Shown: positions 12,827 to 14,820 of the stretch, in pieces
Layout: each line of letters begins with the position of its first letter
How positions within the stretch are numbered: position 1 is the stretch's first letter
Assembly (NCBI RefSeq): GCF_001417735.1
Contig: NZ_BBUZ01000037.1
Location: 62,001 to 126,000, forward strand
Length of the DNA stretch: 64,000 nt
Direction of reading: 5' to 3'
Origin: Streptomyces sp. NBRC 110028
GTDB taxonomy: Bacteria > Actinomycetota > Actinomycetes > Streptomycetales > Streptomycetaceae
The notes under the pieces: generated by a model
Database searches by the model: none
Seen by the model: only the letters and a program-made list of their open reading frames with translations
Told to the model about the DNA's origin: nothing
Translations under genes and position numbers: made by a program

Positions 12827-12846
12827 TGTGGATAACCCGGGGTTAT
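12827..12846. promoter_or_regulatory. Palindrome ATAACCC-G-GGGTTAT overlapping a DnaA-box-like 9-mer
   Basis: 12832-12846 is a 15-bp palindrome with 7-bp arms. TGTGGATAA at 12827-12835 is the exact reverse complement of the E. coli DnaA box TTATCCACA. The site lies upstream of moxR. A single box may be chance. Confidence 0.4.
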
Positions 12847-12884: not shown

Positions 12885-13442
12885 TCAGCCGCGCGGCTCG
12901 ACCTCACGCAGCAGACCGGTCGTCACATCGAAGACGAAACCCCGCACGTCGTCGCGGTGGAGCAGGAACGGCGAGGTGCGCACCCGCTCGATCGACTGGC
13001 GTACGTCGGCGTCCAGGTCCTTGAAGCTCTCGACCGCCCACGACGGCCGCTGACCCACTTCCTCCTCCAGCTCGTGCCGGAAGTCCTCGGTGAGGTTCAG
13101 CAGACCGCAGCCGGTGTGGTGGATCAGCACGACGCTGCGGGTGCCCAGCGCGCGCTGGCTGATGGTCAGGGAGCGGATGATGTCGTCGGTGACCACGCCG
13201 CCCGCGTTGCGGATGGTGTGGCAGTCGCCCAGCTCCAGGCCGAGCGCCTCGTGCAGATCGAGACGTGCGTCCATGCAGGCGACGATGGCGACGTGCTGCA
13301 CGGGGCGCGCGTCCATACCGGGGTCGGTGAAGCTGGCGGCGTACTGGCGGTTGGCCTCGACGAGCCGGTCGGTGACCGAGCCGGCGGTGCCGGCGGCGCT
13401 GTCGGAGGACTGGGGCAACGGCTGCGACGCAGATATCGACAT
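12885..13442 (-). CDS. Beta-class carbonic anhydrase
   Basis: 185 aa. Zinc ligands fit the beta class: Cys56 and Asp58 in ACMDAR, then His109 and Cys112 in HHTGCG. The segment TIRNAGGVVTDDIIRSLTIS is conserved in the Mycobacterium Rv1284-like subgroup. It interconverts CO2 and bicarbonate in the cytoplasm. The ATG at 13442 fits the family length; upstream codons to 13541 look non-coding and no strong ribosome binding site is visible. It is transcribed away from rsmH, so the region 13443-13860 contains divergent promoters. Confidence 0.92.
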   Translation of the reverse strand: MSISASQPLPQSSDSAAGTAGSVTDRLVEANRQYAASFTDPGMDARPVQHVAIVACMDARLDLHEALGLELGDCHTIRNAGGVVTDDIIRSLTISQRALGTRSVVLIHHTGCGLLNLTEDFRHELEEEVGQRPSWAVESFKDLDADVRQSIERVRTSPFLLHRDDVRGFVFDVTTGLLREVEPRG

Positions 13443-13626
13443 GGCTACGACCCTAATCCCACCAGCTGATTTTGTCTTTTCTTTAGGTTGCGCAAACGAG
13501 GGCATCGGGTGCTCCGAAGGAGTGATTGTGAGCCACTCCACACCTCCGCGCGCCCCTTCCCACCGCCCTCGGACGGAACCATTCCGCTCCGGTCCACTCC
13601 GTCGGCGGGGCGCGCTGGCCGGTTGG

Positions 13627-13666
13627 TTGACCGAGGGGACGAGTGGACTAAAGTGGCGCGAAGTGG
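13627..13666 (+). promoter_or_regulatory. dcw promoter overlaid by three 10-bp-phased AGTGG repeats (MraZ-box-like)
   Basis: AGTGG occurs at 13642, 13652 and 13662, exactly 10 bp apart (gAGTGGacta aAGTGGcgcg aAGTGG). The MraZ repressor is known to bind arrays of short GTG-rich boxes with 10-bp period at dcw promoters. A promoter-like TTGACC (13627-13632), 16-bp spacer, TAAAGT (13649-13654) coincides with the repeats. No mraZ gene is present here: nothing in 13443-13860 looks like its 140-odd-residue product. Confidence 0.6.
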
Positions 13667-13860
13667 GAGGCGTGACGCTCCCCTTGGACCCCGGAATTTT
13701 CGCGTGAGCGCGGTGCGTACGTACCCCTCGGCCTCCTCCCGCTCCGGCCGCCTGACGTCACTTCCCCGGCGCCAGTCGGCCGCTTCCCCTTCGAGCGGGT
13801 GGGGACCCGGCGGTGCGTACCCGCCACGCCCGACCCTCAGAAGGGCGCACGAGCAGCGCA

Positions 13861-14820
13861 ATGAGCAGCAACGCTCTCCACGTTCCCGTCATGCTTCAGC
13901 GCTGCCTGGACATGCTGGCCCCCGCCCTCGCCGAACCCGGCGCGGTGGTGGTCGACTGCACGCTCGGCCTCGGAGGGCACAGCGAGGCGCTGCTGCGCAG
14001 CTTCCCCGCGGCCCGGCTCATCGCCCTCGACCGCGACCCCGACGCGCTCCGGCTGGCCGGTGAGCGCCTGGCCCCCTACGGCGACCGGGCGACCCTGGTG
14101 CACGCCGTCTACGACGAGCTGCCCGAGGTCCTGGACCGGCTCGGCGTGCCGCGCGTCCAGGGCGTCCTGTTCGACCTCGGCGTCTCCTCCATGCAACTGG
14201 ACGAGGCCGAGCGAGGCTTCGCCTACGCGCAGGACGCCCCGCTGGACATGCGGATGGACCAGACGACGGGCATCGGCGCCGCCGAGGTGCTGAACACCTA
14301 TCCGCCGGGCGACCTGGTGCGCATCCTGCGGACGTACGGCGAGGAGAAGTTCGCCAAGAAGATCGTGGACGCGGTGGTCAGGGAGCGCGAGAAGGAGCCG
14401 TTCAGCAACAGCGCCCGGCTCGTCGAGCTGATCCGCGAGGCCCTGCCGCAGGCCGCCAAGCGCACCGGCGGCAACCCCGCCAAGCGCACCTTCCAGGCGC
14501 TGCGCATCGAGGTCAACGGCGAGCTGGCCGTCCTGGAGCGGGCCGTTCCGGCGGCCGTGGCGGCGCTCGCGGTGGGCGGGCGGATCGCCGTGCTGTCGTA
14601 CCACTCGCTGGAGGACCGGCTGGTCAAGCGCGTGTTGGCGGCCGGTGCCGCCAACACCGCGCCACCCGGTCTGCCGGTCGTCCCGGAGCGCTATCAGCCC
14701 CGGCTCAAGCTGCTCACCCGCGGCGCCGAGCTGCCCACCGAGGAGGAGATCGCCGAGAACCGCCGCGCCGCCCCGGCCCGTTTCCGCGGAGCGGAGCGCA
14801 TCCGCGAGGACGCCCTGTGA
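13861..14820 (+). CDS. rsmH: 16S rRNA m4C1402 methyltransferase RsmH (MraW)
   Basis: 319 aa. The family N-terminus [13 protein letters not shown] is followed by the SAM motif [16 protein letters not shown]. Also conserved are [18 protein letters not shown] and the C-terminal [13 protein letters not shown]. It N4-methylates C1402 in the ribosomal decoding centre. The ATG at 13861 matches the family start; an in-frame GTG at 13813 is an alternative, and neither has a strong ribosome binding site. It is the first gene of the dcw cluster, and its stop overlaps the ftsL start (GTGA). Confidence 0.95.

Follow-up and report, generated by a model that had tools for sequence, protein, structure and literature searches.

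What is an MraZ-box-like array doing over the first promoter of a division (dcw) gene cluster that has no mraZ, and is it still read? The question is raised by a stretch of 64,000 nucleotides of a Streptomyces genome (contig C37, 62001-126000; hereafter the window). This genome (8.92 Mb, completeness 100%) is placed inside Streptomyces by its neighbours in the rsmH tree. Direct reading of the sequence confirmed three copies of AGTGG at exact 10-bp spacing (starting at 13642, 13652 and 13662), which a preliminary description of this DNA had pointed out. Its statements that these repeats overlie a promoter, TTGACC-16-TAAAGT, upstream of rsmH, and that mraZ is absent from the interval between the divergent gene and rsmH, were likewise borne out (Table 1). 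The promoter, with rsmH about 200 nt downstream, satisfies the sigma-70-type (HrdB-like) pattern TTGAC-16/18-TAnnnT and is the sole match of sigma-70 type within 13440-13870 (shuffled sequences: mean 0.0, standard deviation 0.1). A scan of the window gave the triple itself, without mismatch, and a second match that overlaps it, with two mismatches, at 13632; the latter reveals a decayed fourth repeat in register with the others; two matches were seen in none of 100 shuffles. The GTGG cores of the four repeats are numbered R1 to R4.

Table 1. Features of the rsmH promoter region, in window coordinates.
Feature	Position	Strand	Basis
Divergent gene, putative beta-carbonic anhydrase (name from the preliminary description)	12885..13442	-	open reading frame; start at 13442 chosen by the authors
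Upstream stretch, constrained in Streptomyces and not in mraZ carriers	13608..13626	+	Streptomyces consensus CGACGCGCAGGCCGGTTGA
-35 hexamer TTGACC	13627..13632	+	sequence reading and promoter match
R1, first MraZ repeat, decayed (GAGG for GTGG)	13633..13636	+	GTGG of the carriers
R2, second MraZ repeat GTGG, strongly held	13643..13646 (AGTGG 13642-13646)	+	change counts
-10 hexamer TAAAGT, overlapping R3	13649..13654	+	sequence reading and promoter match
R3, third MraZ repeat GTGG, overlapping the -10	13653..13656 (AGTGG 13652-13656)	+	window has the state of the carriers
R4, fourth MraZ repeat GTGG, near the expected transcription start	13663..13666 (AGTGG 13662-13666)	+	
Predicted 5' hairpin of the leader RNA, GGGAG...CUCCC	13665..13682	+	fold; R4 forms the 5' arm
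mraW RNA (RF01746)	13713..13828	+	35.3 bits, E 1.3e-5, below the gathering score of 50
rsmH (mraW), with which the dcw cluster begins here	13861..14820	+	PF01795, 372.9 bits; start codon chosen by the authors

Arrays of this kind precede mraZ in other actinobacteria. Three or more GTGG exactly 10 bp apart stand in the 420 nt preceding the first MraZ match at 44 of 49 actinobacterial loci, these being the best-scoring matches of three draws of genomes (class, order and family) and not a random sample; shuffled sequences gave 0 of 980. The five loci with fewer than three repeats were counted as misses (L037, at a contig end; L098, where the 420-nt stretch falls inside mraZ; L053, L054 and L059). 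For the Streptomycetaceae, comparison was made with 32 promoters from ten genera, namely those obtained whole out of 54 strong mraZ carriers in the family draw. A promoter with TTG(A/C)C and TA-n-n-GT stands before mraZ in all 32, and the promoters align base by base. R1, R2 and R3 are GTGG in every one of these carriers, and R4 is GTGG in 25 and ATGG in the other seven. Elsewhere in the order, family f48 has R2 to R4 intact but not R1 in each of its 11 rows, and the single row of family f47 has R1 to R3. Since the f48 rows keep only R2 to R4, three repeats also occur before a living mraZ, and binding of a foreign MraZ to the box of the window, where the same three are intact, is therefore plausible.

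The sequence downstream of the promoter records what happened to the gene. Carriers of mraZ have, in this order, the promoter, a short leader, mraZ, a spacer with the mraW RNA, and rsmH. The leader of the window, from about 13709 to between 13818 and 13855, aligns with the mraZ-rsmH spacer of all 32 carriers, each alignment scoring above 40 shuffles and its start and end differing from row to row. From the other side, the match of the promoter region extends by eye to about 13685 in some carriers (L255), and approximately 25 nt separate it from the spacer homology. As the leader corresponds to the old mraZ-rsmH spacer, the whole of mraZ has been lost and its promoter now serves rsmH. The terms "MraZ-box-like" and "inherited operator" used in the preliminary description are thus supported both by the aligned boxes of mraZ-bearing relatives and by the shared downstream spacer; judged by these comparisons, the array of the window is an inherited MraZ operator whose own regulator gene is gone. 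A frame ending in LDPGIFA-stop at 13707, which resembles the MraZ end LPGIL-stop, was considered as a coding remnant of mraZ and rejected, as it is absent from other Streptomyces leaders.

The mraW RNA motif has been recorded for Actinomycetales, according to the part of the source available (PMC2864571), and in the window it is likewise found in the leader before rsmH. It differs in scoring below gathering here and in the rarity of the motif at rsmH in Streptomyces, where a fast search matched 8 of 38 genomes, six of them at that place. Scores over gathering were obtained for three of 12 relatives tested (3/6 mraZ-bearing, 0/6 mraZ-less), and at the level of whole genomes, whatever the place, a match occurs in all 17 genera of the family. 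Position and alignment to the spacer of the carriers support the view that the mraW RNA of the window is there by descent. The motif seems to be eroding in Streptomyces.

In the rsmH tree the 104 Streptomyces rows group together (SH-aLRT 94; 99/98 in a 66-row tree) inside a clade (100/99) that also holds eight mraZ-bearing genera. The mraZ-less groups g116, g117, g124 and g127 form a separate clade (100/99). A constraint placing all mraZ-less rows together was rejected (p-AU 0.000189), as was one joining Streptomyces to these four groups (p-AU 0.00171), in tests on 66 author-picked rows that include 20 of the 104 Streptomyces rows and whose mraZ state was known beforehand. The tree needs four changes of mraZ state; the placement of g123 and g128 is unsure, and the claim is for this reason limited to at least two losses of mraZ within the Streptomycetaceae, regain at the same place being formally possible.

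The fate of the operator after the loss was followed through its rate of change. Parsimony changes per column were counted on the rsmH tree, which is built from one gene and weakly supported at many branches, for the 104 mraZ-less Streptomyces rows (tree length 7.12, with two identical pairs, L074/L210 and L089/L237) and for the 32 carriers (3.75). Control regions changed at equal speed in both sets, the spacer 13637-13642 with 84 versus 45 changes (1.97 versus 2.00 per column and unit length, p = 0.93) and the downstream flank 13667-13676 with 150 versus 83 (2.11 versus 2.21, p = 0.73), and the -10 was equally slow in Streptomyces and carriers (0.12 versus 0.13). R1, by contrast, underwent 73 changes over four columns in Streptomyces and none in the carriers (p = 7e-14), which equals the speed of the spacer, its first G being slower than the rest (7 changes). 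R2 changed five times over four columns versus 0 in the carriers (p = 0.17). For R3, at the two bases outside the -10, 14 changes compare with 0 (p = 0.004), and 80 of 104 Streptomyces rows have A in place of its last G, where the window keeps the state of the carriers. R4 changed 32 times versus twice (p = 0.0002). The 80 named Streptomyces rows alone gave 52 changes in R1, 4 in R2 and 22 in R4.

Conservation in related species, on which the preliminary description had made its reading depend, holds for the promoter and for R2 but not for the array. In the Streptomyces rows, the first T, first A and last T of the -10 are invariant (104/104), and TTGAC of the -35 changed nine times over five columns, the -35 being altered in ten rows; the intact triple R2 to R4, GTGG throughout, persists in no more than 14 of the 104, among them the six that make up the window's clade. 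Outside Streptomyces, 14 mraZ-less rows were compared, and two of them, L267 (g123) and L271 (g127), yielded no promoter. Given the drift of R1 at the rate of the spacer and the partial relaxation of R3 and R4, Streptomyces has probably ceased to read the array as an MraZ box, and it is from this drift that we infer the absence of a reader. The window therefore resembles MraZ boxes of other bacteria in that its first dcw promoter is overlain by at least three short direct repeats spaced about 10 bp, or roughly one helical turn, and in aligning with the box before mraZ in its sister genera. According to the part of the report available, the MraZ repeat of Mollicutes is AAAGTG[T/G] (PMC8475190), and AAAGTGG at 13650-13656 of the window matches it. 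The window differs in that its box precedes rsmH, with mraZ neither directly behind it in the operon nor found anywhere in the genome, in the decay of R1, and in that purifying selection in the lineage holds R2 only, a drift which suggests that the array goes unread as such.

The explanation we favour, with a fair degree of confidence, is that the repeats are the remnant of an MraZ operator of an ancestral mraZ-rsmH operon and that the array has gone unread since mraZ was lost. The ancestral operon would have carried the operator at its promoter and, by analogy with other bacteria, would have been autorepressed by its MraZ. Loss of the entire mraZ in the Streptomyces lineage would have brought the mraZ promoter up against the old spacer, with its mraW RNA, and rsmH; the inherited housekeeping-type promoter, freed of MraZ control, would continue to drive the dcw cluster. 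The four-repeat array, left without an MraZ-like reader, would then be drifting at R1 and partly relaxed at R3 and R4, and R2 would be under a real constraint. That R2 to R4 are nevertheless intact in the window is attributed to a clade that has yet to lose them, to the overlap of R3 with the -10, with which it shares two bases of GTGG, and to R4 encoding the 5' arm of the predicted leader hairpin.

The remaining constraint on the promoter region is best explained by the core promoter, the 5' RNA hairpin (for R4) and a so far unexplained constraint on R2. The fold energy of the putative hairpin is no better than that of shuffles (z-score 0.30). A stem of at least five pairs can form in 80 of the 85 Streptomyces rows that have the GG of R4, in 4 of the 19 that do not and in 14 of the 32 mraZ carriers (control with shuffled 3' sides: 1898/4250), a count that is partly circular since the stem includes this GG. 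R2 is conserved to about the same degree as the -10, and in four rows around S. anulatus (L226, L232, L233 and L243), where the -35 is TCGATC, GTGGACTAAAGT is unchanged and R2 survives. On account of this tight hold and of its survival in the TCGATC rows, R2 may still be read by something.

A second region of interest is the stretch immediately upstream of the -35 (13608-13626), which underwent 146 changes in Streptomyces versus 169 in the carriers on about half the tree length (1.08 versus 2.37 changes per column and tree length, p = 5e-12). Columns 13587-13605 were faster in Streptomyces than in the carriers (611 versus 215 changes, p = 2e-7), which is taken for ungapped misalignment; the stretch was for this reason judged against the carriers, aligned by the same ungapped method. 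It might belong to the divergent gene. CGGT-N6-ACCG flanks the -35.

Together with R2, this stretch underlies the main competitor of the remnant-operator reading, in which the reader was replaced: after the loss of mraZ, a new regulator, some other DNA-binding protein, would recognise 13608-13632 and R2 (as GTGGAC), one old repeat being re-used and the others left to decay. We regard this as possible but distinctly less likely. It is favoured by the difference between R2 and R1 in the same rows (5 versus 73 changes, p = 1.5e-16), by the constraint gained at 13608-13626 and by a 21-base pattern over the upstream stretch and the -35, GCGCNGGCCGGTTGATTGACC, for which 15 of 26 Streptomyces genomes have a match with at most one mismatch, a single one in 14 of them and two in the fifteenth (authors' count). 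With at most three mismatches, however, the same pattern is found at 60 places versus 20 for a control, most of them weak. Moreover, upstream of a neighbouring moxR-type gene some 45 bases are equally conserved by eye in 98 Streptomyces rows, so that bases may be conserved outside the hexamers with no special regulator behind them. In the mraZ-less g127, five of seven rows keep both hexamers without R2 (in L270 a GTGG lies two bases out of register), which also argues against a replaced reader. WhiA was considered in this role and set aside as no more than a lead, given that the window has GGACG at 13637-13641 in place of the WhiA core GACAC, that these columns change at the rate of the spacer and that the published WhiA peak within the dcw operon is at ftsW (core and peak as given in the part of the source available, PMC3781837). 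In 29 of 104 Streptomyces rows (L169, L171, L172, L209, L214 and others, the window not among them), GACAC does occur at 13637-13641, between the -35 and R2. The preliminary description had allowed for a different repressor reading the inherited operator; this is not supported for the whole array, where R1 drifts and R3 and R4 are relaxed, and survives as a possible partial reader of the constrained R2 and upstream stretch. Were it true, the first promoter of the division cluster would have been rewired, and the independent losses of mraZ (two at least) would amount to a natural experiment in operator turnover. The same two elements, 13608-13626 and R2, are places in which the present control of the division genes in Streptomyces could be sought.

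Far less probable is the other proposal of the preliminary description, that the operator is still bound by a remote or very divergent MraZ with its gene at another locus. A search of the window's own genome with the PF02381 profile gave no match, and a profile built from ten MraZ sequences of the same order gave only one match there, of 15 bits and with a stop inside; one AbrB-type (PF04014) match was over its cut-off. MraZ is very widespread in the class (258 of 296 genomes match PF02381, one of them, a Streptomyces genome, weakly), yet none of the strong matches in the order and family draws came from Streptomyces. The family draw gave matches in 61 of 150 genomes, 54 strong ones, all in ten genera, and seven weak ones (authors' count), with three weak and no strong matches among its 38 Streptomyces genomes. 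In the order draw, 15 strong matches fell in families f47 and f48, and 17 of 147 genomes, all Streptomyces, matched weakly. These last 17 are the point in favour of a remote MraZ, but on the loci read the weak matches (22-27 bits) were rejected as MraZ. All 15 Streptomyces loci read (L105-L119; G545, G546, G436 and G448 of g116, G414 and G460 of g127, and G395 stand outside this reading) share a single motif, LDRAGRLQLPA, which in the two loci with frames listed terminates an ABC-transporter-like protein (L106:616-1626; L107:1489-2571, minus strand). The last 40 or so residues of this protein resemble half an MraZ domain (LDRAGRLQLPADY...), and one such protein, when scanned, matched ABC_tran and, with 22.2 bits, MraZ, the latter under its cut-off of 23. 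The drift of R1 is likewise not expected if an MraZ were reading four repeats.

That a GTGG-rich promoter in a G+C-rich genome merely resembles an MraZ box by chance, a reading in keeping with the lack of over-representation of the bare pattern in Streptomyces genomes, is refuted for practical purposes by the aligned promoter and repeats before mraZ in sister genera and by the same spacer downstream. The bare triple is not unusual in such genomes and is rarer than its reversed control: 24 of 101 Streptomyces genomes together contain 29 places with three exact AGTGG, versus 53 for the control (authors' table count), and in the window's own genome three GTGG with at most one mismatch occur at 108 places versus 176. 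Ten of the 29 places are an identical 25-mer, present once each in 10 of the 101 genomes and upstream of rsmH in all ten; at the other 19 no rsmH was found within 1.5 kb on either side. Genomic position and homology, and not the bare pattern, are what counts.

Several parts of this picture are already known, namely MraZ boxes, the mraW RNA, the loss of mraZ in Mollicutes and control by MtrA in Dietzia, and structures of MraZ have been solved (1n0e, 9qlr, 9qlg and 9sx6). For Mollicutes, the available part of the source states that mraZ was lost in several species and proposes its replacement by a non-orthologous protein (PMC5138195), a case alike in the loss of the gene from some species and different in concerning another phylum and, in the part available, in making no mention of operators that were kept. 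It has been described that MtrA controls the mraZ promoter in Dietzia (PMC9602371, as far as the available part of that source goes), and a regulator other than MraZ can thus act on an actinobacterial mraZ promoter, which for the window provides a lead only. A description of an orphan MraZ operator, or of missing mraZ, in Streptomyces was not found in the open-licence literature and may still have been published. Within the family, promoters range from a full four-repeat operator with mraZ, by way of the window's three-repeat orphan, to ones with no repeats, so that one can trace base by base what becomes of a site once its regulator is lost. A perfect-looking MraZ box without MraZ also shows how risky it is to infer a regulator's identity from an operator motif.

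Two further conserved blocks were observed nearby. Upstream of the moxR-type gene, the window has TTATCCACA on the minus strand (12827-12835), which resembles a DnaA box; it stands within a block conserved across 98 Streptomyces rows with the consensus TTGTCCACA. Between the divergent gene and rsmH, at about 13526-13545, lies a block that is possibly a control site of the divergent gene. Its Streptomyces consensus, TTGTGAGGTAACCCACA, closely resembles TGTGAGGTAACCCACA of an mraZ-bearing relative (L076).
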